This document shows positions 16,253-41,778 of a stretch of DNA of 42,899 nt, piece after piece (position 1 is the first letter of the stretch; each line of letters begins with the position of its first letter). The stretch covers positions 1 through 42,899 of the forward strand of contig NZ_JAIWHV010000029.1 in the NCBI RefSeq assembly GCF_020177375.1, written 5' to 3'. Under the pieces are notes generated by a model. The model was not told the origin of the DNA, did not search any database, and saw only the letters and a list, made by a program, of their open reading frames with translations. A program made the position numbers and the translations under genes. The stretch is from Saliphagus infecundisoli. GTDB taxonomy: Archaea > Halobacteriota > Halobacteria > Halobacteriales > Natrialbaceae.

Positions 16253-17531
16253 ATGACTAATAGCAATGAAAGCAGCACGGCGGAGAGACGTACCGACCCC
16301 ACCGGAGGGGCGAAGAACGTGGCCGACTTCGAAACGGACGGCGATCGGCCGGTCGAATCCGGATCCTCCTCTCCGAATTCGGTCGGTCGACGAGGATATC
16401 TGAAGGCGGTGTCGACCGCCGCGGCGACCGGCCTCGGCATCGGTGCCGTGGCGACCCCCGCCGCCGCCATCTCCGAAAACCAGACCGGCAACGACGGCGG
16501 CTACTTCTACTCGTTCTGGACCGACTCCGAGGGGACGGTCACCATGGACCTGGGGTCCGGGGGCAACTACAGCGTCGAGTGGACCGACACGGGGAACTTC
16601 GTCTGTGGCAAGGGCTGGGAGACCGGCGCGGCCAGAAACGTCGACTACTCGGCCTCGTACAACCCGTCGGGCAACTCCTACCTGTGCCTCTACGGGTGGA
16701 CGACGGACCCGCTGGTCGAGTACTACGTCATCGAAAACCACGGCAGCTACCGGCCCGAGCACGACTACAGGGGGACCGTCAACACCGATGGTGGGACCTA
16801 CGACATCTACGAGTCGCTTCGGGAGAACAAACCCTCCATCGAAGGTGAGGCGACGTTCCCGCAGTACTGGAGCGTCCGGCAGAACACGCGTTCAAGCGGG
16901 ACGATCACCGCCGGAAACCACTTCGACGCCTGGCAGAGCAACGGCATGGACATGGGGAGCCACGACTACCAGATCCTGGCCACCGAGGGCTACGAGAGCA
17001 GCGGGAGCGCCAGCGTCACCGTCGGGAGCTCCGGCGGCGGCGGTGGCGGTGGAGGCGGCGGAGGCGACGACGGCGGCGACGATGGAGGTGGCGGCTCCTC
17101 CGGTTCGGTCGCGAACGGCACCTATAGCATCCAGAACGTCAACAGCGGGAAGGTACTCGACGTCGCCAACGGGTCGACGGAGGACGGCGCCAACGTCCAG
17201 CAGTACTCCGACGGCGGCGGCTCGAACCAGCAGTGGTCCGTCGAGGACACCGGCAACGGCGTCTACCGGATCGAGAACGTCAACAGCGGGAAGGTGCTCG
17301 ACGTCGCCAACGGGTCGACCGAGGACGGCGCGAACGTCCAGCAGTATTCCGACGGCGGTAGCGACAACCAGCGTTTTTACCTCCACGATCAGGGCGGCGG
17401 CGAGTATCACGTCCAGCCGGTCCACAGCGAGAAGGCAGTGGACGTCGAGAACTCCTCGACCGACGACGGCGCGAACGTCCACCAGTACGACTGGCACGGC
17501 GGCGCCAACCAGCTCTGGACGTTCGACTCGG
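16253..17531 (+). CDS. secreted GH11 endo-beta-1,4-xylanase with ricin-type beta-trefoil
   Basis: A secreted xylanase of about 426 residues (stop at 17534-17536). A Tat signal ([16 protein letters not shown], Arg46-Arg47) ends near ATPAAA; residues about 80-257 form a GH11 jelly roll. The two catalytic glutamates are identifiable as Glu156 in [13 protein letters not shown] and Glu245 in [10 protein letters not shown] Gly/Asp-rich linker follows, then a beta-trefoil (about 293-426) of three repeats ending in NQQW, NQRF and NQLW, a CBM13/ricin-lectin type carbohydrate-binding module. It should cut insoluble xylan outside the cell while the trefoil holds it on the substrate. GH11 is rare in archaea, so acquisition from bacteria is plausible. 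Confidence 0.93.
17133..17358 (+). repeat. internal tandem repeat in the beta-trefoil module
   Basis: Bases 17133-17217 and 17274-17358 (offset 141 bases, 47 codons) differ at only four positions out of 85, all third-codon and silent. They encode the first two trefoil lobes of the xylanase. The third lobe is much more diverged. This indicates recent duplication or gene conversion of lobe 1 and lobe 2. Confidence 0.85.
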
Positions 17532-17558
17532 TCTGATCGAGTCCCGTGAAGCGCGGCG

Positions 17559-19805
<2,247 letters not shown>

Positions 19806-20292: not shown

Positions 20293-23200
20293 ATGACCGA
20301 CAATGGCACTCACTCGAACCGCAAGCGGCGCTCGTTCCTCCAGGCGATGGCGGCGGCCGGCCTCGGCGCGACGGTCGGCTCCGGTCGGGCCGTCGCACAG
20401 AGCGACTCGGAGGACCTCGATTCGTACCACCAGGCCCTCCGGGACACCCTCACCGGCGAGGAGGGGCTTCCGGAGGGAGAGTTCGTCTACGGGACGAGCG
20501 AGGACGCCGTCCTCGAGGCGTTCGCGCTCGACCCGCCCGAAAGCGGCACGGAGACCGTCGTCGACGTGAACGCGGAGGTACCGATCACGCGGGCCGACCG
20601 CGTCGAGATGACCGAGGTTCCCGAGAACCCCTACGCCGCGACATACAGGGCGAACGTGACCGACCGCTCGTTCGAGGAGGGCGACGTCCTGCTCGTGGTG
20701 GTCTACCTCCGGGGCGTCGGGACCGCGAGCGCGGGCGAACCCGTCGAGACCCAGGCGGGATTCAAGTGGCAGTACACGAACCCGGACGGCTCGACGGGTT
20801 ACTCGGAGAACATGATCGAGGGGACCGTGCAGGTTTCGCCGGGCCAGCAGTGGCAGCGCTACTACTTCCCGATCGAGGTCATCGCCAGACCCGACGGCTC
20901 GGCGTTCCAGCCCTATACCGAGTTCTGGACGGGGTACGGCGAACAGACCGTCGAGTTCGGCGGCCTCGCGCTGGTCGACTACGGTGACACGGACGTCGCG
21001 GTCGGGGACCTCCCGACGAGTTCCTTCGACTACGACTACCCGGGACGGGCCGAGGACGCCGCGTGGCGCGACGCCGCCAACCAGCGCATCGAGGAGATCC
21101 GGACGACCGACCTCGAGGTCACCGTGGTCAACGAGCACGGCGATCCGGTCGAGGGTGCGGCCGTCGACGTGGCGATGCAGGAACACGCCTTCGACTTCGG
21201 GTCGGCGGTCTCGGCCGCGCAGTTCCCCGACGGCAACGAGACCTACCGCGAGACGTTCCTGGAGAACTTCAACAAGGCCGTGCCCGAGAACGGGCTGAAG
21301 GTGCCGGCGTGGGAGGGCGAGTACGGCGAGTCCCTCGATCGGGACAACACCCGTGCGGCCATCGACTGGCTGACCGAGCGCGATATTCCCACGCGGGGCC
21401 ACGCCCTGGTGTGGTCGACCTACGACTGGATGGGGATCGATTCGGACCAGTCGGCCACCGAGATCAACGAGGAGGTAAAGCGGCTCATCCGCGAGCGCGC
21501 CGACGAGTTCGAGGGCCGGCTCCCGGAGTGGGACATGCACAACCACCCCCTGTTCTACCCCGAGATCTGGGAGGACATCGGGCGGGAGTACGTCCTCGAC
21601 TGGTGGGAGACTGCCCACGAGGCCGTCCCCGACTCCCGGATGTATATCAACGAGATTAACATCCTCAACGGGAACCTCGCGGATTCCTACTACGACCACA
21701 TCGGCTGGCTCCAGGACAACGGCGCGGACGTCGAGGGGATCGGCTTTATGAGCCACTTCACGCTCGGCAGCCTCACGCCGCCGTCGGAACTGGTCTCGAC
21801 GTTCGACCGGTTCGCGGAGTTCGGGGTCCCCCTCCAGCTCACCGAGTTCGACGTCCAGATCAACGACCGGGGCAGCGAAAACGAGGTCGAGACCCAGGCC
21901 GACTACGTCCGGGACGTCCTGACGGCGGCCTTTAGCCACGAGGCCGTCGACGGCGTGATGTCGTGGGGCTTCTGGCCCGACGAACACTGGCGCCCCACCG
22001 CGGCCTACTACGACAGCGACTGGTCGCTGCGGCCCCACGGTGAGGTCTACCGGGACCTCGTGCTCGGCGAGTGGTGGACCGACGTCTCGGGCGAGACCGA
22101 TTCCGAAGGTGCCTACGCCACCGACGGCTTCAAGGGGACTTACGAGATCACCGCGCGCGCGAACGGCTCGCTCGGCGCCACGACGGTGACCGTCGACGAC
22201 GAGAACGGGTCGGCCACCGTCGAACTCTCGCCCGCGTCGATCGCCGACGTCGAACTCGACGTTCCGACACACACCCTCGAGACGGGCGAAACCACGGACG
22301 TCGGCGTCACGATCGTCACCGAGCGCGGGCGGGAACTCGGGGCCAGCGCCGACAGCCTGTCGTTCGAAACGAGCGACGCGAGCGTCGTCACCGTCGACGG
22401 CGAGGGCGTCGTCACCGGGGCCGGCGCCGGTACGGCGACCGTCACGGCGGTCACGACCGCCTACGGCGATACGGCGGCCGCGAGCGCGACGGTCACGGTC
22501 AACGGCGACGAGTCGGAGACGGTACTCGAGGACGATGCGACGGACCTCTCGAAGACCGACTCGAACGCGAACGTCACGGTCGGCAGCCGCGACGCCGGCT
22601 TCGGGGAGGACAGCTGGTTCGAGAAGACCACGGCGGATGAGCCGAGTTCGGTGACCTACCGCGCCCCCAACGGGTTCGACGCGTTCGACGTGACCGCGCG
22701 CGTCAACTACTCGGCCACCAACGGCGGCGACTTCGAGGACCTGGTCCTCGAGGCCTCGGCCGAGGGCGACTCCTTCGAGGCCGTCGACGCGAGCCACGAG
22801 GTCGTGACACCCGCCAACGACTCCAACGGCTACTACGCCGAGTGGCGCTACGCGGTCGAGTCGGGAATTCCGGAGGACGCCACCCACCTTCGGATCACGA
22901 TCCCGCCGACGGGGGCGAACTTCTACGTCTACCTCACGTCGGTCTCGCTCTCACGAGCCCAGTCGGTCGATCGGACCGGCCCCTCGATCGTGATCGACGA
23001 CCTCCAGGCCGACCGCACGTACGAGGCGCCCCACGAGGCCGACGTGTCCGTCAGCGACGAGGGCGCGATCGCAGAGCGGTCGGTGACCCTCGACGGCGAT
23101 TCGTGGGCGGGCGGGACGCTCACCGCCCGCGGCCGGCGCCGCCTCGCAGCCAGCGCGACCGATTCGGCGGGGATCACGACCGACCTCGGATTCGCCTTCA

Positions 23201-23736
23201 CGGTCGAGAACGCCGACCACGACCTGATCGCCCGCCAGAAGCCGAGCGCGACCGACGCGACCGTGGGCGAACGCCTCACGTTCCAGGTGCAGGACACCAC
23301 CGGCAACGACCGCTGGATCGACTCGCTGGAGTGGTCCTTCGGCGACGGAACCGCCGAGACGGGCTGGTGGGCCGCCCACCGGTTCGAGGACCCAGGTTCC
23401 TACCGCGTCTCGCTGACCGCGACCGACAATCAGGGCCGCACGACCACCGACACGGTGATCGTGCGGGCCGCGGATCTCGACGGCCCCCTCGCGCGGGCGA
23501 AGCCGGGCACGACCGAGGCGGCCGTCGGCGAGCGGATCACGTTCGACGTCGAGGACGCCACGGGCAAGGGTCGCTGGATCGACTCGCTCGAATGGACGTT
23601 CGGCGACGGCACCACTGGGACGGGCTGGTGGGTCGAGCACCGCTACGACGAGACGGGCACCTACACCGTGGCGCTGACCGCGACGGACAACACGGACCAC
23701 TCCACCACCCACGAGGTCGAGATCACGGTCTCCTGA
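20293..23736 (+). CDS. secreted multidomain GH10-like protein lacking the usual acid/base Glu
   Basis: An 1147-residue exported protein. Order: Tat signal (KRRSFLQAMAAAG, residues 11-23, cleaved near 36); a beta-sandwich, CBM-like region (about 85-250); GH10-like barrel (about 275-595); a short Ig-like segment; a BIG2-like domain (about 652-738); a CBM-like beta domain (about 740-890); another Ig-like segment; two PKD domains (about 976-1147) with SLEWSFGDGT and SLEWTFGDGT. The nucleophile is present as Glu518 in LQLTEFDVQ, but where GH10 has WDVVNEP this protein has WDMHNHP, so His418 replaces the acid/base Glu. It may be a substrate-binding pseudoenzyme, or a GH10 relative with altered chemistry. 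Accessory domains suit binding to plant polysaccharide. Confidence 0.85.
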   Translation: MTDNGTHSNRKRRSFLQAMAAAGLGATVGSGRAVAQSDSEDLDSYHQALRDTLTGEEGLPEGEFVYGTSEDAVLEAFALDPPESGTETVVDVNAEVPITRADRVEMTEVPENPYAATYRANVTDRSFEEGDVLLVVVYLRGVGTASAGEPVETQAGFKWQYTNPDGSTGYSENMIEGTVQVSPGQQWQRYYFPIEVIARPDGSAFQPYTEFWTGYGEQTVEFGGLALVDYGDTDVAVGDLPTSSFDYDYPGRAEDAAWRDAANQRIEEIRTTDLEVTVVNEHGDPVEGAAVDVAMQEHAFDFGSAVSAAQFPDGNETYRETFLENFNKAVPENGLKVPAWEGEYGESLDRDNTRAAIDWLTERDIPTRGHALVWSTYDWMGIDSDQSATEINEEVKRLIRERADEFEGRLPEWDMHNHPLFYPEIWEDIGREYVLDWWETAHEAVPDSRMYINEINILNGNLADSYYDHIGWLQDNGADVEGIGFMSHFTLGSLTPPSELVSTFDRFAEFGVPLQLTEFDVQINDRGSENEVETQADYVRDVLTAAFSHEAVDGVMSWGFWPDEHWRPTAAYYDSDWSLRPHGEVYRDLVLGEWWTDVSGETDSEGAYATDGFKGTYEITARANGSLGATTVTVDDENGSATVELSPASIADVELDVPTHTLETGETTDVGVTIVTERGRELGASADSLSFETSDASVVTVDGEGVVTGAGAGTATVTAVTTAYGDTAAASATVTVNGDESETVLEDDATDLSKTDSNANVTVGSRDAGFGEDSWFEKTTADEPSSVTYRAPNGFDAFDVTARVNYSATNGGDFEDLVLEASAEGDSFEAVDASHEVVTPANDSNGYYAEWRYAVESGIPEDATHLRITIPPTGANFYVYLTSVSLSRAQSVDRTGPSIVIDDLQADRTYEAPHEADVSVSDEGAIAERSVTLDGDSWAGGTLTARGRRRLAASATDSAGITTDLGFAFTVENADHDLIARQKPSATDATVGERLTFQVQDTTGNDRWIDSLEWSFGDGTAETGWWAAHRFEDPGSYRVSLTATDNQGRTTTDTVIVRAADLDGPLARAKPGTTEAAVGERITFDVEDATGKGRWIDSLEWTFGDGTTGTGWWVEHRYDETGTYTVALTATDNTDHSTTHEVEITVS

Positions 23737-23859: not shown

Positions 23860-25932
23860 TCAGACGGCCGGTGGTCGGCCGTGTTCGTCCTTGATTCCTG
23901 AATGCTCGTAGAAGAAGGCACAGAGGGTGTCCCGCCACCGCTTCGCCTGCAGGACGTGCTCGTCGAAGCGTTCGGCGACGTGGCGGTACCGGCGCTCGTC
24001 GATCTCGCCCTCGAGACCCTGCCACCGATCCCGCAGCTCCTCGACGGCCTCGACGCCCGCAAAGCAGTTGTCGTAGAGGCGTTGGACCACCGTGGTGCCG
24101 TCTTCGAGTTCGTGGTCCCAGGGGAGGTGATGAAAGAAGAGCAGCAGTTCCTCGGGGCAGGTCTCGGGGTCCTCGTAGCGGGCGGCGATTGGCTCGCGGT
24201 ATTGGCCGGCGTAGCCGCTTCCCGCGGCGGTCCGGTCGTAGCCGATCCCCTCCTCGGTCGCGCCGTGGTACTCGGGCCACTCCTCGGGGGCGGGATCGTA
24301 GTGGTTCTCCAGGGCGGCCTCGCCGTTGTACATCATGTGCATCAGCCCGATCCCCCCGGTGTGGTAGTCGATCGAGGCCTGCCAGGACTCCATGAGGATC
24401 TCGAGGATCGTCTCCCCGGCGTCGCCAGCGCCGAACGTCTGTCGGGTCCACTCGTCGGCGATCTCCTCCGAGCCGAGGTCGGGATCCCACGCGAGCCGGC
24501 CGAAGCCGTAGAGGTTCGACCCCAGAAGGTAGTGACCGAACCAGTTCGGGTCGTCGCCGACGATGCCGACGCCGGCGATGCCCTGGCCCTCCCGGTCGGC
24601 GAGCAACTCCTTGACGGGTGTATCGGGGCCGTCGGCGTGGGTGTCAAAGTCGAGGACCTCCTTCCACTGGGGTACCAGATAACAGGCGTGGACGCCCTGG
24701 CCGGTGTACTCGCCGGTGATCTGGAGCTCACAGCCCAGATCGGTGTCGGGCATCGCGCCGAACAGCGTCGAGACGGGCTCGCGGGGCTGGAAGTCGATGG
24801 GGCCGTTCTTGATCTGGACGGTGACGTTGTCGGCGAACTCTCCGTCTAAGGGTTCGAACGTCTCGTAGGCCTGGACCGCCCGGTCGTCGTGCTCGGAGTA
24901 GACGAACGCGCGCCACCAGAGCCGGCCGCCGTGGGGCGCTAACGCCTCCGCGATGACGTTCGCGCCCTCGGCGTGGTCCCGGTCGTAATCGTAGGGGCCG
25001 AGCTGGCCCTCCGAGTCGGCTTTCACGACGAACCCGCCGAAGTCCGGGATCAGGTCGTACACCTCCGTGGCTTTCCGTTCCCACCACGCCGCGACCTCGG
25101 GCTCTACGGGGTCGGCGGTGTCGAGATCGCTGGCCAACACCGGCGAGGCGAAGTTCACCGAGAGGTAGAGCTCGATCCCGTAGCGTCGGAAGACGCCGGC
25201 GAGCGCGGCGATCTTCTCGAGGTTCCGGCTCTCGATGAGTTGCCAGCCCTCCCACTCCGAGGTCGCATCGTTCGCGCCCTCGCGTCCGGGAATCCTCGTG
25301 TTGACATTGTTGACCGAGATCCCGTTGATCCCCACCGAGGCGAGCAGCCGGGCGTAGTCGGCGTAGCGTTCGTTGAGGTCGGGCAGGCGCTCCCAGTCGA
25401 AGATCGAGGGGCCGGCGTAGCCGCGCTCGACCTTCCGGCGGAAGGGGTTGTCCCAGTGGTCGACGATCCGTTCGGCGTTGGCGGGTTCGGAGACGATATC
25501 GAGGTCGTCGATCGGCTCGCCCAGGCTCATGAGCCGGAGCAGGTGGAAGGTGCCGTAGACGAGGCCGGCGTCGGCGGGTGCCGTCAGCACGGTGCAGTCG
25601 CTGCCCTCCCACTCGACCGACCGAATGAGAAAGCCGTCGTCGTCGAGTGCTCGTACTTCCTCCGGATCGACCGTCTCGCTGATCGGGCGCAGCTCCTCGG
25701 GGCCGCCGATCGCGAGAAAGCCCTCGACGGATCGCGGCGGGTGGTGCCAGAGGTGGGGCTCGCGGTCGAGCAGACCCCCCAGTCCCCGGCGGAGTTCCTC
25801 GCGGACGGCGACGAGTTCGGGGCCGGCGTCGGAGACGTAGGCGTGGGTACAGAGCCGGCGGTAGGTGTCGAGCCGATCGCTCTCGGCGCGGTCGTACCGG
25901 AGCCAGCAGTCGTCGTACTCGGAATCGAACAT
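23860..25932 (-). CDS. GH67 alpha-glucuronidase
   Basis: A 690-residue cytoplasmic enzyme of normal GH67 length. The catalytic set is visible: Glu308 in VKADSEGQLGPYDY, Asp380 in KNGPIDFQPREP and Glu408 in ELQITGEYTG. The spacings (72 and 28 residues) agree with those known for Cellvibrio GlcA67A. The ATG at 25932 (MFDSEYDD) is preferred to the frame's earlier start. No signal peptide, so it acts on imported aldouronic acids, removing (4-O-methyl)glucuronate from the non-reducing-end xylose. It is convergent with the GH10-like gene and lies just downstream of the cytoplasmic GH10 xylanase on the same strand, probably co-transcribed. Glucuronate isomerase at the right edge would take its product. 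Confidence 0.95.
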   Translation of the reverse strand: MFDSEYDDCWLRYDRAESDRLDTYRRLCTHAYVSDAGPELVAVREELRRGLGGLLDREPHLWHHPPRSVEGFLAIGGPEELRPISETVDPEEVRALDDDGFLIRSVEWEGSDCTVLTAPADAGLVYGTFHLLRLMSLGEPIDDLDIVSEPANAERIVDHWDNPFRRKVERGYAGPSIFDWERLPDLNERYADYARLLASVGINGISVNNVNTRIPGREGANDATSEWEGWQLIESRNLEKIAALAGVFRRYGIELYLSVNFASPVLASDLDTADPVEPEVAAWWERKATEVYDLIPDFGGFVVKADSEGQLGPYDYDRDHAEGANVIAEALAPHGGRLWWRAFVYSEHDDRAVQAYETFEPLDGEFADNVTVQIKNGPIDFQPREPVSTLFGAMPDTDLGCELQITGEYTGQGVHACYLVPQWKEVLDFDTHADGPDTPVKELLADREGQGIAGVGIVGDDPNWFGHYLLGSNLYGFGRLAWDPDLGSEEIADEWTRQTFGAGDAGETILEILMESWQASIDYHTGGIGLMHMMYNGEAALENHYDPAPEEWPEYHGATEEGIGYDRTAAGSGYAGQYREPIAARYEDPETCPEELLLFFHHLPWDHELEDGTTVVQRLYDNCFAGVEAVEELRDRWQGLEGEIDERRYRHVAERFDEHVLQAKRWRDTLCAFFYEHSGIKDEHGRPPAV

Positions 25933-26001: not shown

Positions 26002-26970
26002 TCAGTCCTCGAGGACGGCTCGGACGGCGTCGTAGGCGGGTTTGGGGTCGTAGCGTTCGTCGAACAGGAGCGGGTCGCCGGTGTAGCGCTCGGGGAAGTC
26101 CGCAAAGCCCCGGAGCCACGTGCTCGCGTCGGCGACGCCCCACGTGACGATGGTCTCACACCCCGCATCGAGACACGCCTCGAAGACGTCACGGTAGTAG
26201 TCGGCCTGGACCTCGAGGGGGTCGTCGGGGACCTCCCCCCGGTGGAAGGCGACGTCCATCTCGGTGATCTGGACGTCGAGTCCCAGCTCGCGGAACCGCT
26301 CGATGTTCTCGCCGATGCTTTCGGGATCGGGATGGTCCCCGAGGGCGTGAAGCTGGAGTCCGACGCCATCGACGGGAATTCCCCGGTCGAGCATGCCCTC
26401 GAGGAGGTCGTAGATCGCGTCGGACTTCTCGTTTATCGCGTCGGCGCCGTAGTCGTTGTAGTAGAGGTCGGCGTCGGTAGCTTCGCTTGCCCACTCGAAG
26501 GCGAGATCGAGATACTCCTCGCCGAGGGCCTCCGACCAGACCGTTTCCCGGAGGCTCCCGTCGTCGGCGATCGCCTCGTTGACGACGTCCCAGGCGTCTA
26601 TCTTCGCGCGGTAGCGCCCCGCGACGGTGTGGATGTGATCTCTGAGGAACGTACGGATCTGGTCGTCTGTATGCTCCCAGGCCTCGAACCAGTCGGGCTT
26701 CTGGTTGTGCCAGACGAGCGTGTGTCCCCGGACGTACTTGTCGTGGGCCGCGCCGAAGTTCACGATCGCGTCGGCGTCGGTGAAGTCGTAGGTCTTCGGC
26801 GACGGGCGCAGTGGCCCCATCTTCAGGGCGTTTTCGGGCGTGATCGCGTTGAACTCGTCTTTCGCGCGCTTCCAGTAGCTCGGATCGCTTCGCAGGCTGC
26901 CGGGCGCCAGGGCGGCCCCGATTCGAACGTCGCGCTCGTCGGCGATTTCGCGCAGTGGTTGATCGACCAT
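26002..26970 (-). CDS. cytoplasmic GH10 endo-1,4-beta-xylanase
   Basis: A 322-residue single-domain GH10 barrel with no signal peptide. Acid/base Glu132 is in WDVVNEAIADDG and nucleophile Glu237 in VQITEMDVAF; RGHTLVWHNQ (His83, His88) and ITPENALKMG complete the family signature. It should hydrolyse imported xylo-oligosaccharides. A tttaggtac box 25-33 bases before the ATG and a GGGAG just upstream support the start. The alpha-glucuronidase gene follows 69 bases downstream in the same direction. Compare the exported GH10-like protein, which lacks the acid/base residue found here. Confidence 0.94.
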   Translation of the reverse strand: MVDQPLREIADERDVRIGAALAPGSLRSDPSYWKRAKDEFNAITPENALKMGPLRPSPKTYDFTDADAIVNFGAAHDKYVRGHTLVWHNQKPDWFEAWEHTDDQIRTFLRDHIHTVAGRYRAKIDAWDVVNEAIADDGSLRETVWSEALGEEYLDLAFEWASEATDADLYYNDYGADAINEKSDAIYDLLEGMLDRGIPVDGVGLQLHALGDHPDPESIGENIERFRELGLDVQITEMDVAFHRGEVPDDPLEVQADYYRDVFEACLDAGCETIVTWGVADASTWLRGFADFPERYTGDPLLFDERYDPKPAYDAVRAVLED

Positions 26971-28748: not shown

Positions 28749-28958
28749 ATGGCCCGCTCGCCCGCAAGCATGAGCCAGCAACTGTGGATGTCGCTTCTGG
28801 CCGTCAGCGCCGCGATGCTCGCCCTGCTCGGCTGGTCGTTTCTCCATCTCGAGCCGGGCACCTCCTCGTACGCGATCGGACAGGTCAGCGCGATCATCGT
28901 CGGCACGACCCTCGTGGGGTCGCTTCTCGCCTTGCTCTCGGGCTGGAAACCGTTCTAA
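28749..28958 (+). CDS. small two-helix membrane protein, unknown
   Basis: A 69-residue protein with two hydrophobic segments (about 12-30 and 42-62). The ATG at 28749 has a cctttttg box about 30 bases upstream; a second in-frame ATG at 28770 is possible. Its stop codon overlaps by four bases the stop of the convergent Opp-type ATPase gene. Function unknown. Confidence 0.55.
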   Translation: MARSPASMSQQLWMSLLAVSAAMLALLGWSFLHLEPGTSSYAIGQVSAIIVGTTLVGSLLALLSGWKPF

Positions 28959-30121
28959 TCGGCGGTCGAGCCCTCGTCTACGTCCTCGGCGTCCATCGTG
29001 TACTCGTCGGGGTCGGCGTCCGTGTCGGTGATCTCCTCGCTGTTCCAGTACTCGTGATCCTCGAGTTCGCGGAAACACTTGGTCCGGTGGCTTCCGCCGC
29101 TGTCGTAGAGCGCGGGCGTCTCCTCCCGGCAGGCCTCCCGAGCCTCGGGACAGCGGGTGTGGAACCGACAGCCCGACGGCGGGTTCGTCGCGTCGGGGAT
29201 GTCGATCTTCCGGATCGGCGGCGACTCGCGCATCGCCTCCTCGGCGAGTTCGGCGTCGAGTTTCGGCGTCGCCCACTGGAGGACCTTCGTGTAGGGATGC
29301 TGGGGATCGTGGATGATCTCCTCTGCGGTTCCGATCTCGACGATCTCGCCCATGTACATCACAGCGATCTTCCCGCCGGACTTCCCGGCGAGGTAGCGGG
29401 CGTTCGCGAGGTCGTGGGAGATGAAGACGAACGAGGTGTCGAACAGGTCCTGCATCTCGAGGAAGAGGTCCATCGCGCCGATGCGCAAGGAGACGTCGAG
29501 CGCGCTGACGGCCTCGTCGGCGAGGATGACGTCGGGTTCGACCAGCAGGGCGCGGATCAGCGCCACGCGCTGTTGTTCGCCCCCCGAAAGCTGGTGGACG
29601 TACCGGTTGGAGTAGTCCTCCGGGGGCGTGATCCCCGTGCGCTCGAGCATCGCGAGGATGCGATTGCGCCGCTCCTCGTAGTTGAGGTGGGGATGCCACC
29701 GTTTGAGCGGCACCGCGAGGTTGTCCAGCACCGACCGGTAGGGGTTCAACGCGGCGCCGGGGTCCTGGTGGATGATCTGGAGCGACCGGCGGATCTCCTC
29801 GAAGGTCCTGTCGGTGTCGGCGGTGCCCTCCCGGACCTTCCAGATGTCGTCGCCCCGATACCGCACCGAGCCGTCGCTTGGCTTCTGGAGGCCGACGATC
29901 GTCTTCCCGAGGGTGGTCTTCCCGCAGCCGGACTCGCCGACCAGCGCGAGGACGTCGTTCTCGCCGAGCTCGAGGTCGACGCCGTCGACCGCGCGCACGG
30001 GCGGATCGTCGGCGACCCCGAGGCGGTCGGCGAGCCAGGAGGGTGCCATCGAGCCCACCAGCGAGGAGTCCTCGAAGTGGACCTCGAGGTCGTCGACCTC
30101 GACTAAGGGTCGGGTGCTCAC
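28955..30121 (-). CDS. oligopeptide/oligosaccharide ABC transporter ATPase (OppF/DppF type)
   Basis: A 388-residue ATPase. Walker A GESGCGKTTLGKT, signature LSGGEQQRVALIRAL, Walker B VILADEAVSALD and switch-His FISHDLANARY are intact. The C-terminal extension has four cysteines (GCRFHTRCPEAREACREE...HRTKCF), as in Opp/Dpp ATPases where such Cys can hold an iron-sulfur cluster. It overlaps the preceding ATPase gene by four bases, so the two are translated together. Although named for peptides, archaeal Opp-type importers often carry beta-linked oligosaccharides; xylan context favours xylo-oligosaccharides here. Confidence 0.92.
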   Translation of the reverse strand: MSTRPLVEVDDLEVHFEDSSLVGSMAPSWLADRLGVADDPPVRAVDGVDLELGENDVLALVGESGCGKTTLGKTIVGLQKPSDGSVRYRGDDIWKVREGTADTDRTFEEIRRSLQIIHQDPGAALNPYRSVLDNLAVPLKRWHPHLNYEERRNRILAMLERTGITPPEDYSNRYVHQLSGGEQQRVALIRALLVEPDVILADEAVSALDVSLRIGAMDLFLEMQDLFDTSFVFISHDLANARYLAGKSGGKIAVMYMGEIVEIGTAEEIIHDPQHPYTKVLQWATPKLDAELAEEAMRESPPIRKIDIPDATNPPSGCRFHTRCPEAREACREETPALYDSGGSHRTKCFRELEDHEYWNSEEITDTDADPDEYTMDAEDVDEGSTAD

Positions 30122-31176
30122 TGACCCTCACCCCCGAAGGAAAGCGGGACGGCCTCGTCTGCCTCCTCCCAGTAGTGACAGCGGACCTCGTGGTCGTCGC
30201 TGACGTCGTAAAAGCCCGGATCCTCAGTCGTACAGAACTCGTCGCCGAGCGGACACCGGGGGTGGTACGAACAGCCGTCGGGGTGGTTGACCGGGTCCGG
30301 ACTCTCGCCCTCGATCGGGCGCATCTCCTCTAGGGGGATCTCGAGGTTCGGCGTCGCCTGCAACAGCGCCCGCGTGTAGGGGTGGGCGGCGCCGCCGAGG
30401 ATCTCCTCTGCGGGACCGACCTCGGCGAACTCGAAGGCGTACATCACGGCCAGTCGGTCTGCAAACCCCGAGACGATCGGGAGGTCGTGGCTGATGAACA
30501 CGAGCGTGAGCCCGTACTTGTCCCGGAGGTCATAGAGGAGATTGAGGATCGACCGCTGCATCAGGAGGTCGAGCGCGGCGGTCGGCTCGTCCATGACGAG
30601 GACGTCGGGCTCTAAGATGAGCGAGAGCGCGATCAGCGCGCGCTGTTTCTGGCCGCCGCTTACCTCGTGAGGGAACGAATCGAGCATCCGGTTGGGCTCT
30701 AAGTGGAGATCCGAGAGGAGCTGTGCGGCCCGCTCCATCCCCTCGTCTTTGTCCCAGCCGTGGGCCTCGAGGGTCTCGTCGAAGTGTTCGCCGATCCGCA
30801 TGGTGGGGTTGAAGGCGCTCATCGCGCCCTGGAACACCATCGAGATCTCCTCCCAGCGAAGCTCGCGCAGTTCCCAGGGCTTGAGGTTGAGGACGTCGAC
30901 TGGGTCGCCGTCCTCGGGGTAGTAGGTAACCTCGCCGCTGACGACCCCAGGTTCGACGACGGCGTCGAGCAAGGTGTCCGCGAACATCGACTTCCCCGAC
31001 CCCGACTCGCCGACGACACCCAGGGTCTCCCCGCGTTCGATGTCGACGGTGACGTCCTTGAGGACGTGCGAGGCACCTTTGTCCATCTCGAAGCGGACGT
31101 TGGCGTCCCGGATGGTGAGGATCGGGTCCTCGACGGAGCGGCTCTCCCGGTCGACGCTCATCGCTTCGTTCACCAT
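30118..31176 (-). CDS. oligopeptide/oligosaccharide ABC transporter ATPase (OppD/DppD type)
   Basis: A 352-residue ATPase with Walker A GESGSGKSMFADT, signature VSGGQKQRALIALSL, Walker B VLVMDEPTAALD and FISHDLPIVSGFA. The C-terminal region again has four cysteines (GCSYHPRCPLGDEFC...HEVRCHY). The ATG at 31176 (MVNEAMSV) follows an AGAGG stretch by a few bases; the longer frame upstream is non-acidic and overlaps duplicated promoter DNA. It is divergent from the first lipoprotein gene, and forms a heterodimer with the OppF-type protein encoded next. Confidence 0.92.
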   Translation of the reverse strand: MVNEAMSVDRESRSVEDPILTIRDANVRFEMDKGASHVLKDVTVDIERGETLGVVGESGSGKSMFADTLLDAVVEPGVVSGEVTYYPEDGDPVDVLNLKPWELRELRWEEISMVFQGAMSAFNPTMRIGEHFDETLEAHGWDKDEGMERAAQLLSDLHLEPNRMLDSFPHEVSGGQKQRALIALSLILEPDVLVMDEPTAALDLLMQRSILNLLYDLRDKYGLTLVFISHDLPIVSGFADRLAVMYAFEFAEVGPAEEILGGAAHPYTRALLQATPNLEIPLEEMRPIEGESPDPVNHPDGCSYHPRCPLGDEFCTTEDPGFYDVSDDHEVRCHYWEEADEAVPLSFGGEGQ

Positions 31177-31412
31177 CGCGACCTCTCCCCGCGTTCTCTC
31201 CGGCCGGCTCGGTTCCGTGCGTACCGAACGCTGTAGACAGGGCCAGACATTCACCCCCATCTCCGGACCATAATTATAAATATCCTTCCCTCCCCGGGCG
31301 TCACGCGCAGTCCGGAATCCGACGGGCGATTGGCAGGTCGCTGGTGCGTGACTATCGCATAACTAATTGCTGGCCAGAATATTTATCACTCATTATCATC
31401 CATCTCCATCGG
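31177..31412. promoter_or_regulatory. divergent promoter region, left copy of a duplicated segment
   Basis: This 236-base gap serves the ATPase genes leftward and the first lipoprotein gene rightward. Two AT-rich boxes occur: ataattataaatat at 31270-31283, suited to the ATPase side or an upstream element, and gaatatttatcac about 28 bases before the ATG at 31413, giving a leaderless mRNA. Most of the segment from about 31196 recurs, diverged, upstream of the second lipoprotein gene (33363-33570). Confidence 0.6.
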
Positions 31413-33257
31413 ATGTCTGGAGAGCACCACTGGCAGCGCGCCATCTCACGACGGAGAGCACTCGCACTGGTCGGCGTCGGTGGTTCCGGGGCGATCGCCG
31501 GCTGTTTGGGTAATGGTACTGACGACGAGGACGAAGAGCTCCTCGGAGAAACGGGGTTGGAACCAGTTCTCGATGACGTCGACTACAACGAGGACTACGA
31601 GGACGAGTACCAGGTCCTGTACCCGTCGGCGGAACTCAACCCGTTCGAGGACGACCACATCTTCAACCCGTATCATCCCAAGTGGAACCCCGGGGACTTG
31701 GGACAGGAGTTCGGGTTCGAGTACCTGGCGGTGTACCACACCGAACGCGGCGAGTACGTACCGCGCATTGCCGACGACTGGTCGATCGACGACGACACCC
31801 TTCGAACCGAAGTCACCCTCTCGGAGGAGTACGGCTGGTCGACGGGCGAGGACATCACCGCCCACGACTTCGTCACCGCGTACAAGTTAGACGGCCACTT
31901 GAGTCTGGGAATCGAGGAGTTCGTCGACATCGAGGAGGGGGTCTACGCCGACGACGATTACACGCTCGTCATCGAGCCCGTAGACGAGTACAGCGATCTG
32001 GAGAAGGACCTGTGGATGAGCCAATGGGCCGAGGCGAACCTGACGGTTTCGGAGAGCCAGTACGGTCAGTTCGTCGAGGAGTTCGAGGACGCGGGGGACG
32101 ATGACGAACACGAGAGCGTCCAGGAGGACCTCCTCAACTACGACGTGAGCTGGAACGAGGTCCTGTACTCGGGCCCCTGGATCTTTGCCGAGGCCAACGA
32201 GGAGTACGCCGACCAGGTCCCGAACCCTGAGCATCCGATCGCACAGGATTGGAACTTCTTCCAACGAACCGGCATGTACGTCGACGAGGAGGGAATCGAA
32301 TCTGGCGAGGTCGACTGGGGAGACGACAGTCCCGAACTCGAGGACGTGCCCGACAAGTACGGCGAAGGACCGTTGCCGTATGACGGGCAGTCGTTTGCGA
32401 TCATCTTCGGGACCGAAGACGAGTACATCCGCGAGTATCCCGAAGTGCGCCAGGCACTCGCCTACGCCGTCGACATCCCGCACCTGACCGAGGTCACCGC
32501 CACGGACGGGACGCCCCACGACGAGTACTCCACGGGGATCGACTCCCTGTACGTCGAAGACTACGTCGAGGCCGACGCCCTCGATGCAATGGCGAACTAC
32601 GCGCCCCAGGACACGGAGACCGCTCAGGATCTCCTCGAACCGATCGGTTTCGAGCTTGATGGCGACGAGTGGCTGACGCCGGACGGCGATATTTGGAACA
32701 TCAATTTCTCGGTGGGCGAGTGGTTTGACACCCACTCGGAGATAATCTCGAACAATCTCCAGGAGTTCGGAATCGACGTCGATCATTACGTCAGCGAGAT
32801 GCCAAATTGGGAGTCGGAGGTCATGGAGCCCCTCGACTTCGATATGACGGTTCATCTGAACTACGGGATGGCTCGCGAGTATCATCCCTACCCCGACTTC
32901 AACGACGTGTTCAACAATCGCACCATGGGATTGCTCACCGAACGGACGGGGATCGTCGAGGAGACCGTCGAGGTGCCCGAAGTCGGCAGCCCGGATGGAG
33001 ATACGGTAACGTTCGACGTTCCCGAGGAGCTTGACGCGATGTTGACGGCCGATTCCGAGGACGAACTCGTCGATCACGCGACGAACCTCGCCTGGGTCCA
33101 CAACCAGAAGCTCCCTGCGGCCGTTTGCTTCCCCTGGGGCGGAGGGCATTACTGGGTCAACACCGATGACTGGAACTTCGACCTCGAAAGTGAGGATTGG
33201 CTGACCTCGAACCGGCTCACCCATTACCTGTTGCAGAACGGGATCGAACCGGTTTGA
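31413..33257 (+). CDS. Opp-type ABC transporter substrate-binding lipoprotein 1 (family 5)
   Basis: A 614-residue family-5 solute-binding protein. The Tat signal (ISRRRALALVGVGG) ends in an IAGC lipobox with Cys31, then an acidic linker (DDEDEELLGE) and the binding fold. Internal marks are PRIADDWSIDDDTLRTEVTL, VRQALAYAVDIPHL (read as EVRQALAYAVD) and a C-terminal WLTSNRLTHYLLQNGIEP. A paralogue follows directly; the two share the signal peptide almost exactly. It would deliver oligosaccharides (or peptides) to the fused permease at 36848. Start set by the TATA-like box 28 bases upstream. Confidence 0.9.
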   Translation: MSGEHHWQRAISRRRALALVGVGGSGAIAGCLGNGTDDEDEELLGETGLEPVLDDVDYNEDYEDEYQVLYPSAELNPFEDDHIFNPYHPKWNPGDLGQEFGFEYLAVYHTERGEYVPRIADDWSIDDDTLRTEVTLSEEYGWSTGEDITAHDFVTAYKLDGHLSLGIEEFVDIEEGVYADDDYTLVIEPVDEYSDLEKDLWMSQWAEANLTVSESQYGQFVEEFEDAGDDDEHESVQEDLLNYDVSWNEVLYSGPWIFAEANEEYADQVPNPEHPIAQDWNFFQRTGMYVDEEGIESGEVDWGDDSPELEDVPDKYGEGPLPYDGQSFAIIFGTEDEYIREYPEVRQALAYAVDIPHLTEVTATDGTPHDEYSTGIDSLYVEDYVEADALDAMANYAPQDTETAQDLLEPIGFELDGDEWLTPDGDIWNINFSVGEWFDTHSEIISNNLQEFGIDVDHYVSEMPNWESEVMEPLDFDMTVHLNYGMAREYHPYPDFNDVFNNRTMGLLTERTGIVEETVEVPEVGSPDGDTVTFDVPEELDAMLTADSEDELVDHATNLAWVHNQKLPAAVCFPWGGGHYWVNTDDWNFDLESEDWLTSNRLTHYLLQNGIEPV

Positions 33258-33641
33258 CCCCGAAGCGGTTTCGCAGACGGGCGTAACTCGACGGCGTCCG
33301 CCCGTGTTCGTATCGGGAATCCCACGTTCTCGCAAGCGGACGGTGTCGGAAGCGATCGCGCTCTCTCCGGCCGGCTCGGTTTCGCATGCCCCGAAACGCC
33401 GTCGACAGAGCCAGCCCTTCGGCTCTTCCCCCGGACCAAATCGTCGATATCGCTCCCTCCCCGGGCGCCACGCACGGTCCGGACGACGCAACGGATCTCG
33501 TCGTGAACCGCTCCACGATGGATCGCCGCCGGCCGAAACATTTATCATACATTATCATCAATTTCGACTGATGCCTGAGAAGCAGCACTGGCAGCGCGCC
33601 ATCTCACGACGGAGAGCACTCGCACTGGTCGGCGTCGGTGG
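31428..33641 (+). repeat. 56-base identical blocks over the lipoprotein signal peptides
   Basis: Bases 31428-31483 and 33586-33641 are identical over 56 positions, including silent codon positions, and encode residues from the first conserved His to the second Gly of the signal peptide. Flanking mature regions are clearly diverged. The spanned interval holds lipoprotein gene 1 and the promoter of gene 2. This is a tandem duplication with the signal region kept alike by recent conversion or selection. Confidence 0.85.
33258..33570 (+). promoter_or_regulatory. promoter region of second lipoprotein gene, right copy of duplicated segment
   Basis: No gene in these 313 bases. From about 33363 the sequence parallels 31196 onward: shared ctctccggccggctcggtt, then ctccctccccgggcg near 33453 (left copy near 31286), then a catttatcatacattatcatc promoter about 29 bases before the ATG at 33571. 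The first hundred bases have no counterpart in the left copy. Confidence 0.65.
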
Positions 33642-35469
33642 CGCCGGGACGATCGCCGGCTGTCTCGGCGGCGACGGCGGCAATGGCAATGGCAACGGGA
33701 ATGACAGCGGCAACGGAAACGACAGCGGCAACGGAAACGGCAACGACAGCAGCGGCGAGGACGCCTTAGAGGAGTACTACGGCGGGGAAGCCGAGGAAGT
33801 CGAACAGGAGTTCGACGCCGACTACGAGCAGTGGAGCGAGGCGAATCTACCGGACGCCACAACCCCCTACGATGGGGAGTACATCCTCAACCCCTATCAC
33901 TCCTCGTGGAACGCGGGCGACCTCCAGGAACTGGGCTACGAGTACCTCTCGGTGTACCACACGGGGGACGGCGAGTACATCCCCCGCGTTGCCGACGAGT
34001 GGTCGATCGACGAGGAGACCCTCGAGACCGAGATCACGCTGAGCAGCGATTACGGCTGGTCGAACGGCGACCCGGTCACGGCCGCCGACTTCGAGACGGC
34101 GATGCGCCTCAGCGCCTACATGGAGATGGGTCTCGAGACCTACATCAACCCCGACGAGGGGATCACTGCCGAGGACGACACCACGCTCGTCCTCCAGCCC
34201 CGCGAGGACTACCAGGCACTCGAGTCCTCGTTCTGGGAGAACCAGTTCGCCGAGACGATCTTGAACGTCTCGGAGGCCCAGTACGGCGGGTTCGTCGAGG
34301 AGTTCGCCGACACCGACTCCGACGAGGAGATCTCGAACATCCAGGGCAACATCATTGAGTTTGCGCCCGAGTGGAACCAGGCGATGTACTCGGGTCCGTT
34401 CATGTGGATCGAGGCCAACGAGGAGTACGCCGACCGGGTTCCGAACCAGAACCACCCGGTCGCCCAGGACTGGGAGCTCTATCTCCGAACCGGACAGTAC
34501 GATGGGGAGGAGGGGCTACGTTCCGAAGACGCCAGCTGGGCACACAACACGGCGATCACCGCGGACCTGCCCGACATCTACGAGTCGCCGCCGGTGTCGT
34601 ACTCCGGCCAGACGTTCGCGCTCCTGTTCGGTCCCCAGGACCAGTACATCTCCCAGGAGCCCGACGTCCGGAAGGCGATCGCGTACGCGATCGACTGTCA
34701 GAATCTGGTCGAGACCGTCGCCCCCTCGACGCCGGTCGACACCTACTCCGCCGGTGTCGACATCGGCTACATCGAGAACTTCGTCGCCGAGGACGCCCTC
34801 GAAGCGATGACCGACTACTCGGTCCGGGACACCGACCGCGCCCAGGAACTCCTCGAGGGCGTCGGCTTCAGTCTCGACGACGGCACCTGGTACACTCCCG
34901 AGGACGAGGAGTGGCAACTCGAGTTCCCCCACGGCGACTGGTTCCCGGACCACGGCGAGATCATCAACAACAACCTGACCGAGTTCGGCATTAGCTCCGA
35001 ACGCACTTCCAACGCCATGGGGACCTGGCAGTCCGAGTACGGCGACACCCTCGAGTACGACATCAGCGTCCATCTGAACTACGGGATGGCCCGACAGTAC
35101 CACCCGCTGCCGGACTTCGAGGAGGAACTGTTCGATGCCGACCGCGCGGCGGTCACCGGGACCGAGATCCTGAGCGAGGAAGTCGAGGTGCCCGAGGTCG
35201 GCAACCCCGAGGGCGACACGATCACGGTCAACTTCCGGGAGGCCCTGGATAACATGGCGGTCGCGGGCGGCGAAGACGAGTTGATGGAGATCGCGACCAG
35301 GGTCGCGTGGGCACACAACCAGTTGCTCCCGAACCTGATGATCTACCCCTGGAGCGAGCACTACTGGGTCGACGCCGCGAACTGGAACTTCGACGTCGAG
35401 TCCGACGACTGGCTCACCTCGAACCGGATCGCCCACTACATGCTCCAGAACGGCATCAGTCAGACCTAA
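33571..35469 (+). CDS. Opp-type ABC transporter substrate-binding lipoprotein 2 (family 5)
   Basis: A 632-residue paralogue of the preceding protein. Its signal peptide matches over residues 6-24 (HWQRAISRRRALALVGVGG) and ends in IAGC with Cys31; after it comes a Gly-Asn-Asp-Ser linker (GNGNGNDSGNGN) in place of the acidic linker of copy 1. The rest is collinear with copy 1 (PRVADEWSIDEETLETEITL; WLTSNRIAHYMLQNGIS). Two binding proteins feeding one permease would widen the range of ligands, for example plain and glucuronate-decorated xylo-oligosaccharides; this is inference. Confidence 0.9.
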   Translation: MPEKQHWQRAISRRRALALVGVGGAGTIAGCLGGDGGNGNGNGNDSGNGNDSGNGNGNDSSGEDALEEYYGGEAEEVEQEFDADYEQWSEANLPDATTPYDGEYILNPYHSSWNAGDLQELGYEYLSVYHTGDGEYIPRVADEWSIDEETLETEITLSSDYGWSNGDPVTAADFETAMRLSAYMEMGLETYINPDEGITAEDDTTLVLQPREDYQALESSFWENQFAETILNVSEAQYGGFVEEFADTDSDEEISNIQGNIIEFAPEWNQAMYSGPFMWIEANEEYADRVPNQNHPVAQDWELYLRTGQYDGEEGLRSEDASWAHNTAITADLPDIYESPPVSYSGQTFALLFGPQDQYISQEPDVRKAIAYAIDCQNLVETVAPSTPVDTYSAGVDIGYIENFVAEDALEAMTDYSVRDTDRAQELLEGVGFSLDDGTWYTPEDEEWQLEFPHGDWFPDHGEIINNNLTEFGISSERTSNAMGTWQSEYGDTLEYDISVHLNYGMARQYHPLPDFEEELFDADRAAVTGTEILSEEVEVPEVGNPEGDTITVNFREALDNMAVAGGEDELMEIATRVAWAHNQLLPNLMIYPWSEHYWVDAANWNFDVESDDWLTSNRIAHYMLQNGISQT

Positions 35470-35598
35470 GCCGTCGACTCCGTTCCGACCCCATAGCTCC
35501 GCGATATCGTTCCGTTTTTGTGCTGTTTTCACCCGTCTTTTGCTCCCGACGAGCCGTCGCATCGGGACGTTTTTGTTCCGGCAGGTTCCCGGGAGCGT

Positions 35599-36783
35599 AT
35601 GGCACAAGGGAGCGATGTGCGCGACGTGGAGATAACCGACGTCCGGACGACCCGCGTCGAGTCGGAGTTCTTCTGGACGTACGTCCGGATCTACACGGAC
35701 GAGGGCATGACCGGAACCGGCGAGGCCGTCCTCGGTCCGAAAGCCGACGAGTACGTCGATTTCGTACGGGAGCTGCTCGTCGGGAAGAACCCCCTCGACA
35801 TCGACGCGCGGTGTACGGAGCTGTTCGACCGGCTCTCGTATCTCGGCGGGATGTCCGGGATCGGCGTGACGGCGATCTCGGCGATCGACATCGCGCTCCA
35901 CGATCTCGCGGGGAAGCTATTGGACGTGCCCGCCTACCAGCTCTTGGGGGGGAAACACCGCGAGGACGTCCGGGTCTACTGTGACTGTCACGCCGGCGAG
36001 CACCTCCACGCCGGCGGCGGCGAGGACGCATACAGACCCGAAGCGTATGCCGACGCCGCGGAGGGGGTTCTCGCCGACGGCTTCGACGCGATCAAGTTCG
36101 ACCTCGACGGCCTGGAGCGCGGCGACGAGGACCGCCGGACCAAGCGCCTCTCAGCGCGCGCGGTCGACTACCGCCGGGAGATCGTCGAGGCGGTGACCGA
36201 TCGCGTCGGCGACCGTGCGGACGTCGCCTTCGACTGTCACTGGAGCTGGAACGGCGACACCGTCCGCCGGCTGGCCTCGGCGCTCGAGCCCTATCCCGTG
36301 TGGTGGTTGGAGGACACCGTTCCCCCGGAGAACCACGACGTCCAGATGGAGGTCACCCGCGCGAGCGAGACGACGATCGCCGCGGGAGAGAACGTCTACC
36401 GCGTCGAGGGCGCCCGCCGGCTGATCGAGAACCAGGGTCTCGACGTGCTCCACCCCGACGTGCCGAAGACCGGCGGGATGCTCGAGACGAAGAAGATGGC
36501 CGACATGGCCAAAGCCTACTACATCCCCGTGGCGCTGCACAACGTCGCCTCGCCGCTGGGCACGATGGCCTCCGCCCACGTCGGCGCCGCGACCTCGAAC
36601 TTCATGGCCGTCGAGTACCACGCCCGGGATCTCCCGTGGTGGGACGACGTGATCGAGGGGGGACCGATCATCGAGGACGGGCAGATCGCCGTTCCCGACG
36701 AGCCGGGACTGGGGGTCGAACTCGACGAGGACGCCGTCGCCGACCGCCTCGCGCCCGGCGAGACGGTCTTCGAGGAGCCATGA
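35599..36783 (+). CDS. second enolase-superfamily sugar-acid dehydratase
   Basis: A 394-residue paralogue of the dehydratase at 6872-8107. Same barrel motifs: FDAIKFDLDG, VAFDCHWSWNG (metal Asp), WWLEDTVPPENHD (Glu), AAGENVYR (Glu) and VALHNVASPLG (His). A loop after VYCDCHAG is different (EHLHAGGGEDAYRPEA), suggesting another substrate. The ATG at 35599 has a gtttttgtt box about 30 bases upstream. It lies between the lipoprotein and permease genes of the Opp-type importer. Candidate substrates are xylonate, arabinonate, or mannonate from the glucuronate route begun by UxaC at the right edge; the sequence alone does not decide. Confidence 0.78.
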   Translation: MAQGSDVRDVEITDVRTTRVESEFFWTYVRIYTDEGMTGTGEAVLGPKADEYVDFVRELLVGKNPLDIDARCTELFDRLSYLGGMSGIGVTAISAIDIALHDLAGKLLDVPAYQLLGGKHREDVRVYCDCHAGEHLHAGGGEDAYRPEAYADAAEGVLADGFDAIKFDLDGLERGDEDRRTKRLSARAVDYRREIVEAVTDRVGDRADVAFDCHWSWNGDTVRRLASALEPYPVWWLEDTVPPENHDVQMEVTRASETTIAAGENVYRVEGARRLIENQGLDVLHPDVPKTGGMLETKKMADMAKAYYIPVALHNVASPLGTMASAHVGAATSNFMAVEYHARDLPWWDDVIEGGPIIEDGQIAVPDEPGLGVELDEDAVADRLAPGETVFEEP

Positions 36784-36847
36784 GTCGGACTCCAGCTACC
36801 GGAACTGTTATTACGCTTGCCCGATGGACTTTTGGTATCAATAGACC

Positions 36848-40156: not shown

Positions 40157-40555
40157 ATGGCCTACAACCTCGATTCAGGTTCGCACTCGGTCTATTCGCT
40201 CCACTATCACCTGATACTCGTCACGAAGTGTCGGAGTGAAGTCTTGACCGAAGACAGAACCAATTTCATCCACGAGGTCATCGACGGGTTCGCAGACAAC
40301 TACGGCGTCGAGGTCTCGCACCTCGACGGCGAAGACGACCACATACACGTCCTGTTCACAACGAAACCCACGACGAACCTCGTGAAGTTCGTCAACACGC
40401 TCAAGGGAGCGACTGCGCGGAGGGTTCGCAATGAGTTCCCCGAACTCAAGGACGAACAGGGAGATTCGTTCTGGAACGACTCGTACTGTCTCATCTTGAC
40501 GGGACAGGTCTCACTCGACGTGCTCACCGAGTATGTCGACAACCAGCGCCGATGA
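40157..40555 (+). CDS. tnpA: IS200/IS605 transposase TnpA (Y1, HUH type)
   Basis: A 132-residue single-strand transposase. The HUH pair is His62-Ile-His64 in DDHIHVLF and the catalytic Tyr is Tyr126 in EYVDNQRR; VYSLHYHLILVTKCR is the usual N-terminal strand. It cuts and rejoins one DNA strand at the element's ends. A tataatacatataaa box about 13-28 bases upstream is its promoter. Full length and motifs indicate an intact enzyme. The stop codon overlaps the tnpB start (ATGA). Confidence 0.95.
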   Translation: MAYNLDSGSHSVYSLHYHLILVTKCRSEVLTEDRTNFIHEVIDGFADNYGVEVSHLDGEDDHIHVLFTTKPTTNLVKFVNTLKGATARRVRNEFPELKDEQGDSFWNDSYCLILTGQVSLDVLTEYVDNQRR

Positions 40556-41778
40556 ATTGCACCTACCGGTTCCGGCTCAATCCCACGCCCGAACAGAAAG
40601 AGCGGTTGGCGTGGACACTGGATACCTGCCGACAGGTCCGCAACCACTTCCTGCATCGGATGAATCGGCTGGAAGACCCGTCGTACACACCAGAACAGAA
40701 TCGTCTCCCGAAACTCAAAAAGTGGTGGACCGACCTCCAGTCGGTCCACTCGAAAGTGCTTCAGATGGTCGTTCGCCGCCTCTACAAGGACCGTTCGAAC
40801 CTTGCGAAAAAGGCGAAGAAGGGCTCCAACGTCGGCAAACTCAAGTGGAAAGGTGTAGGCGACTACTATTCGTTCACGTACAACCAGACCGGCTTCGAAC
40901 TCAAGAAAACGAGTGGCCGCGACAGGTTGCACCTTTCGAAGATTGGCGACGTTCCCGTGGTTGCTCACCGAGACCTCCCCGACGACGCCACGACAACTGG
41001 CGTCGTCGTGAAACGCGAAGCCACCGGACGGTGGTACGCTTCGCTCCAATTCGACACCGGCGTCGAAGCACCTCCGAAACCGGACAACCCGGAGCAGTGT
41101 GTCGGTATCGACGTGGGAATACTGAAATACACCCACGACACCGACGGCCACGCCGTCGGGTCGTTGGACCTCTCGGCCGAACAAGAGCGGTTAGAACACG
41201 AACAGCGTGTCCTCTCGCGCAAAGAGCACGGGTCGACCAACTACCGCGAACAGCAACGGAAAGTTGCTCGACGCCATGCCGACATCAAGCGAAAGCGCCG
41301 CGACTTCCTGCACAAGCTCTCGAGGTGGTACGCCGAGACCTACGACCTCGTGGCGGTCGAAAAGTTGGACGCAAAGAACATGATGGAACTGCCGTCGAAC
41401 TCGCACAACCGTGCGAGTGCGGCATGGGCAACGTTTCGGACGTTGCTGAAGTGGAAGTGCAAACGCGAAGGAACTCACTTCGCGGAGGTCGAACCAGCAG
41501 GAACCACCAAAGAGTGCGCGGCTTGCGGTGTCGAGACCGAGAAACCACTGTGGGTCCGCGACCATTCCTGTCCCGCCTGCGGGTTCGAAGCGGACAGGGA
41601 CGAAAACGCCGCGTGGAACGTGCTCCACCGCGGATTCGGACAATTAGGCATGGGCTGTGCCGAATCAACGCCCTCGGAGACTGCAGTCCCTACGGACACC
41701 TCCTTTCAGCAGGTGTCTGCAAACCGCGTCGTCGAACAGGGAAGCCCCGCCCTCACCGAGCGCGTCAGCGCGAACTAA
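40552..41778 (+). CDS. tnpB: RNA-guided endonuclease TnpB (IS200/IS605 OrfB)
   Basis: A 408-residue TnpB. RuvC acid residues are Asp187 (VGIDVGILKY), Glu270 (VAVEKLDAKNM) and Asp350 (DRDENAAWN); the zinc finger has Cys322-x2-Cys325 and Cys340-x2-Cys343. The N-terminal helix region (YRFRLNPTPEQKERL) is the usual start. TnpB uses an RNA from its own 3' end to cut DNA at the empty donor site, which favours element retention. All catalytic residues are present. The last 40 bases of the gene overlap a stem-loop expected for that RNA. Confidence 0.94.
   Translation: MNCTYRFRLNPTPEQKERLAWTLDTCRQVRNHFLHRMNRLEDPSYTPEQNRLPKLKKWWTDLQSVHSKVLQMVVRRLYKDRSNLAKKAKKGSNVGKLKWKGVGDYYSFTYNQTGFELKKTSGRDRLHLSKIGDVPVVAHRDLPDDATTTGVVVKREATGRWYASLQFDTGVEAPPKPDNPEQCVGIDVGILKYTHDTDGHAVGSLDLSAEQERLEHEQRVLSRKEHGSTNYREQQRKVARRHADIKRKRRDFLHKLSRWYAETYDLVAVEKLDAKNMMELPSNSHNRASAAWATFRTLLKWKCKREGTHFAEVEPAGTTKECAACGVETEKPLWVRDHSCPACGFEADRDENAAWNVLHRGFGQLGMGCAESTPSETAVPTDTSFQQVSANRVVEQGSPALTERVSAN

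Follow-up and report, generated by a model that had tools for sequence, protein, structure and literature searches.

A natural histidine variant at the acid/base position of haloarchaeal GH10 proteins

In GH10 and its clan, the acid/base glutamate of strand beta-4 is regarded as a fixed, diagnostic feature. Can a GH10-type protein that carries histidine at this place still act as an enzyme? The question is raised by P0001, a protein of Saliphagus infecundisoli encoded on NZ_JAIWHV010000029.1. We analyzed positions 1-42,899 of this contig (the window, meaning the whole stretch of 42,899 nucleotides). An earlier note on this DNA had read WDMHNHP where GH10 xylanases carry the acid/base Glu, and had proposed a xylan-binding pseudoenzyme or a different chemistry. 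The codons at 21529-21549 (tgg gac atg cac aac cac ccc) confirm the motif and place His418 at 21544-21546. The gene has the following features.

20293-23736, + strand: P0001, exported GH10-like protein of 1147 aa with several domains, whose acid/base position is occupied by His (open reading frame, translation and domains)
20332-20400, + strand: twin-arginine-type signal region (RKRRSFLQAMAAAGLGATVGSGRAVA), from the translation
20425-21012, + strand: N-terminal beta-sandwich with a CBM4/CBM22-like fold (AlphaFold pLDDT 90, Foldseek/VIA matches)
21037-22209, + strand: GH10 (beta/alpha)8 barrel with an N-terminal helix/hairpin and a C-terminal beta extension
21529-21549, + strand: WDMHNHP motif at the end of beta-4
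21544-21546, + strand: His418, in the place of the acid/base Glu
21652-21654, + strand: Glu454, coupled change at the position of Cex Asp170
21748-21750, + strand: Met486, coupled change at the position of Cex Gln203
21844-21846, + strand: Glu518, conserved catalytic nucleophile
22249-22473, + strand: Big_2 immunoglobulin-like domain
23257-23460, + strand: PKD domain 1
23485-23730, + strand: PKD domain 2

The twin-arginine-type signal reads RKRRSFLQAMAAAGLG, and most P0001 homologues also have an RRTFLK-type start. The GH10 domain matches PF00331 at residues 296-575 with 138 bits against a cut-off of 22. The N-terminal domain has the CBM4/CBM22 fold (Z 12.9 to CBM4-2 and 11.9 to CBM22), and the types that it resembles bind xylan or cellulose. 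Its sequence profile matched no Pfam family and no carbohydrate-binding module in the PDB. This domain (20425-21012) is common to most of the His clade and to the Glu-bearing protein L035, with a sequence resemblance in a Bacteroidota protein, and is a candidate for a new carbohydrate-binding module family.

An AlphaFold2 model of the barrel (mean pLDDT 96.1, pTM 0.93) has the canonical GH10 fold. Among solved structures 7D88 comes closest (Z 43.9, rmsd 2.1, 356 residues, 32% identity). In the pairwise alignment with 7D88/7D89, His418 matches the acid/base Glu182 without a gap and Glu518 matches the nucleophile Glu280; Glu182 and Glu280 are both mutated in 7D89. The earlier claim that the nucleophile is kept stands. 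Active-site contacts were inferred from the strand order of the model, in which His418 (model residue 170) follows beta-4, Glu454 (206) lies in beta-5, Met486 (238) is at the end of beta-6 and Glu518 (270) is inside beta-7. P0001 is a GH10 member by descent and fold, not by catalytic signature: it has the profile match, the (beta/alpha)8 fold and the beta-7 Glu nucleophile, but the residue following Asn at the end of beta-4 is His418 in place of Glu, as in 29/29 sequences of its clade.

This clade was collected from GTDB genomes of the family and the class and from two plasmid records, and was compared with 88 other GH10 sequences, 87 of them readable at position 486. As the earlier note had suspected, the change is a family-wide variant and not a single mutation: among GTDB genomes the 29 sequences cover five families and at least 12 genome-level genera, and Halocatena plasmids add to these. 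Carriers make up 18/391 sampled genomes of the class. The S. infecundisoli genome itself has WDMHNHP in a second gene for an exported GH10, on contig C6, and also encodes four GH10s with Glu. Chance, sequencing error and isolated mutation are ruled out, because the same motif occurs in this second gene and in 29/29 clade relatives; both CAC and CAT are used for His418 within the clade.

The histidine does not come alone. His418, Glu454 and Met486 occur together in 29/29 His-clade sequences. Among the 88 other GH10s the acid/base position is Glu throughout (His 0/88), position 454 is Asp in 76/88 and Glu in 12/88, and position 486 is Gln or Glu (Met 0/87 readable). Their combinations at the three positions are E/D/Q (72), E/E/Q (12) and E/D/E (3), with one sequence unreadable at the third, and no mixture of His-type and canonical residues was found among the 29 clade members and 88 others. 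Since the three active-site changes always appear together, the pattern suggests the evolution of an alternative active site and not the decay of an enzyme.

Other marks of the clade are His416 and Trp438 (27/29 each) and the clade-specific basic residues Arg567 and Arg580. Asn417, Pro419, His370, Trp374, His488, Glu518, Asp520 and Trp558 are invariant, and the Glu518 position is Glu in 29/29 and in every other GH10 sequence readable there. The mean frequency of the major residue is 0.99 at 18 active-site positions versus 0.67 elsewhere, and dN/dS in close clade pairs is about 0.07-0.27, indicating purifying selection. Judged from these sequences, the active site of the clade, with a -1 subsite that hardly varies outside the three changed positions, is stable and selected.

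A few individual genes deserve mention. An apparent nucleophile loss in Halosimplex was rejected, as the TQFDV match falls outside the active site and LTEFDI is intact. The variant gene L127 (9362-11440, genome G321) is interrupted by TGA, and intact relatives exist. L023, L112 (16352-18466) and L008 (1133-3241) have the normal acid/base Glu but carry Glu for Gln at the position of Cex Gln203, a rare change.

What surrounds the gene bears on the likely substrate. The sequence of the window identifies it as a glucuronoxylan locus, with the following further features.

16253-17536, + strand: exported GH11 xylanase with ricin-type lectin domains
23860-25932, - strand: GH67 alpha-glucuronidase (PF07488/PF07477/PF03648), the gene after P0001, convergent with it
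26002-26970, - strand: cytoplasmic GH10 xylanase with WDVVNEA (323 bits)
28955-38908, no strand assigned: peptide/oligosaccharide-type ABC transporter genes (ATPases, two SBP_bac_5, permease) with an interleaved enolase-superfamily dehydratase

The window also encodes enolase-superfamily dehydratases, Gfo/Idh/MocA oxidoreductases, a GH4 and an IclR regulator. The normal WDVVNEA that had been reported for the cytoplasmic GH10 is indeed there. Two other elements were seen in passing: a malic enzyme-phosphotransacetylase fusion gene (17559-19805) within the locus, between GH11 and P0001, and at the locus edge an IS200/IS605-type pair (40157-41778), in which a 132-aa upstream ORF accompanies an OrfB/TnpB-like protein with a Cas12f1-like TNB domain.

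The known substrates of GH67 enzymes are GH10 products with a uronate at their non-reducing end. In the class sample, 17/18 variant genomes encode a GH67, versus 13/24 genomes with only other exported GH10s (Fisher p 0.005). A GH67 lies within 13 kb of 13/23 variants versus 18/68 ordinary exported GH10s (p 0.012); at 5 kb this difference is not significant (p 0.19), and in both comparisons the sequences are not independent. Proximity to GH67 is therefore only partly a private trait of the variant, as ordinary exported GH10s are also found near it. In Halorussus vallis the variant gene and those for mannonate dehydratase and glucuronate isomerase are divergently oriented, with a GDSL esterase, GH4, cytoplasmic GH10, D-xylose dehydrogenase and GH2 nearby. 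The loci that show divergence from these two genes or from an adjoining dehydrogenase are L068, L119, L121, L123 and L132. These genes bear out the suggestion of uronate-bearing xylan as the gene context.

Two Halocatena members of the clade lie away from glucuronate genes. Two variant GH10s, L069 (11932-13254) and L137 (9098-10486, Halocatena marina plasmid), show no evident export signal, and L069 sits among sulfatases and a GH78. From its neighbors, L069 possibly has a different substrate (a sulfated rhamnose-rich algal polysaccharide?) or location.

From its sequence features we consider P0001 probably active, and we lean towards a reading in which this haloarchaeal GH10 subfamily consists of mostly exported, active retaining endo-glycanases that act on (methyl)glucuronoxylan with His418 as the general acid/base. 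Glu518 would attack the anomeric carbon, as in every GH10, while His418 at the end of beta-4 would protonate the leaving group and then activate water. The neighbors that changed with it (Glu454 in beta-5, Met486 in beta-6 and His416) probably tune it. His418 may be part of a His-carboxylate dyad: the histidine occupies the acid position, and the invariant Glu454 is on the next strand of the model. The ABC transporter would take up the products, and inside the cell GH67 and the ordinary cytoplasmic GH10 would complete their degradation. One point against this reading is that Glu454 is also found in 12/88 ordinary GH10s.

The main rival, possible but less favored than an active enzyme, is that the protein is a secreted, cell-attached xylan binder without hydrolysis, whose barrel, CBM-like and PKD domains hold glucuronoxylan for true xylanases. 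The acid/base Glu is gone, P0001 has the CBM-like N-terminal fold and PKD/Big_2 domains, and ordinary xylanases (GH10/GH11) accompany the variant in many genomes, indeed in most of those that carry it. This rival is kept in view because of an engineered GH10 double mutant, N127S/E128H, which binds intact xylopentaose (PMC5811086). However, Asp520, His488 and the nucleophile Glu, which are needed for chemistry alone, are invariant in 29/29, and two more residues of the catalytic center were replaced in coordination with His418. The relaxed constraint on remaining catalytic residues that is expected of a dead GH10 was not observed.

Genomes in which the variant stands alone also speak against a mere binder. 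In G151 (99% complete) it is the sole GH10, and no GH11, GH30, GH43, GH5 or GH8 was found in that genome. G363 is similar: its only other GH10 is a cytoplasmic one broken by TGA (C1:1481018-1481638), of which intact relatives exist. Apart from the variant, no exported protein of the GH10/11/30/43/5/8 types was found in either genome, so any secreted glucuronoxylan depolymerase of such genomes, if present, would be the variant protein. Against this, scavengers like G151 might live on oligosaccharides that others release. Taken together, we rate the binder as unlikely.

A second alternative, which we hold to be decidedly improbable, is that His418 binds a uronate or other anion and that the acid/base is supplied by a substrate carboxylate or by an anion from outside. 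Activity would then be restricted to glucuronate-decorated or activated xylan, or transglycosylation would be favored. This is consistent with the tight link to GH67 and glucuronate catabolism, with a positive residue in a place that is normally acidic and with the basic Arg567 and Arg580, but some ordinary exported GH10s share the GH67 link (the 18/68 within 13 kb) and the two Halocatena members are remote from glucuronate genes. Least probable is that another protein carboxylate is the true acid/base and His418 a bystander: Glu454 (29/29) and Glu390 (28/29) are better candidates than the Glu424 put forward by the earlier note, which we reject for its poor conservation (E 7/29, N 20/29), but Glu454 also occurs in ordinary GH10s that retain the normal Glu, and His418 aligns gap-free with Glu182 of 7D88.

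Phylogenetic analysis grouped the His variants with Glu-bearing proteins of genome G014 and a protein from Haliscomenobacter (support of the entire group 96), the long bacterial branches in this tree being unreliable. In a second tree of 45 sequences, built with the trait columns removed, the G014 Glu proteins fall between two Halocatena sequences and the other variants (support 99/91), and a single variant clade is disfavored (AU p 0.035). Tentatively, these trees suggest two gains of the His variant, or one gain and a reversion. The G014 proteins L023 (WDVVNEP) and L035 (WDVINEP) and the protein of Haliscomenobacter hydrossis pHALHY03 (WDVVNEP) differ from the clade in their Glu acid/base and in carrying Asp at the first coupled site and Gln or Glu at the second, whereas L035 and the Haliscomenobacter protein share an extra N-terminal region similar to that of the clade. 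All bacterial plasmid GH10 matches that we read have Glu, and none has His. On pHALHY03 (L070, 11386-13445) the Haliscomenobacter relative is represented by two adjacent genes annotated as endo-1,4-beta-xylanase, which look like one split gene. The wider proposal is that a naturally evolved lineage of retaining glycosidases in clan GH-A exchanged its acid/base Glu for His as part of a coordinated active-site change, together with Asp-to-Glu and Gln-to-Met replacements, and became adapted to anionic glucuronoxylan. The change may have arisen on two occasions, or on one and later been reversed. We give this proposal somewhat less than an even chance.

The natural His variant of GH10 is real and was previously unremarked, at least within the open-access literature searched, where we found no report of it (subscription papers were outside the scope). 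Annotation pipelines label the His-clade proteins endo-1,4-beta-xylanase, and the loss of Glu passes unnoticed. If they are active, a retaining enzyme of clan GH-A can do this chemistry with histidine, and the clade names the accompanying changes that an engineered E128H xylanase lacks. If they are inactive, a conserved binding family has been mis-annotated as xylanases.

Histidine as a general acid with a carboxylate partner is known from GH117 and has been proposed for GH3 NagZ-type and GH156 enzymes (PMC11574756). These resemble P0001 in combining a His proton donor with an acidic partner (a hypothesized one in P0001) but differ in fold or family and in linkage, and none is a GH10. XynA of Bacillus sp. 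KW1 (7D88, 9RHV; E182A/E280A in 7D89) shares with P0001 the barrel, helix/hairpin, C-terminal extension, nucleophile, HWR motif and -1 subsite. It differs in having WDVNNE with Glu182 as acid/base and Asp and Gln at the coupled positions, and its chain is without CBM-like or PKD domains. The closest counterparts of the histidine itself are the Streptomyces olivaceoviridis mutants N127S/E128H (2D20, 2D22, 2D24) and T82A/N127S/E128H (5GQD, 5GQE), with His at the same GH10 acid/base position. Crystals of N127S/E128H captured both an intact xylopentaose complex and an accumulated covalent xylobiosyl-enzyme (2D24, 2D22; table in PMC5811086), and because they trap substrate and intermediate, the bare Glu-to-His swap makes a poor acid/base on xylan. 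Those mutants are man-made and substrate-trapped, and Asn127 is substituted in them as well; in the natural clade Asn417 is retained, and Glu454 and Met486 accompany the histidine.
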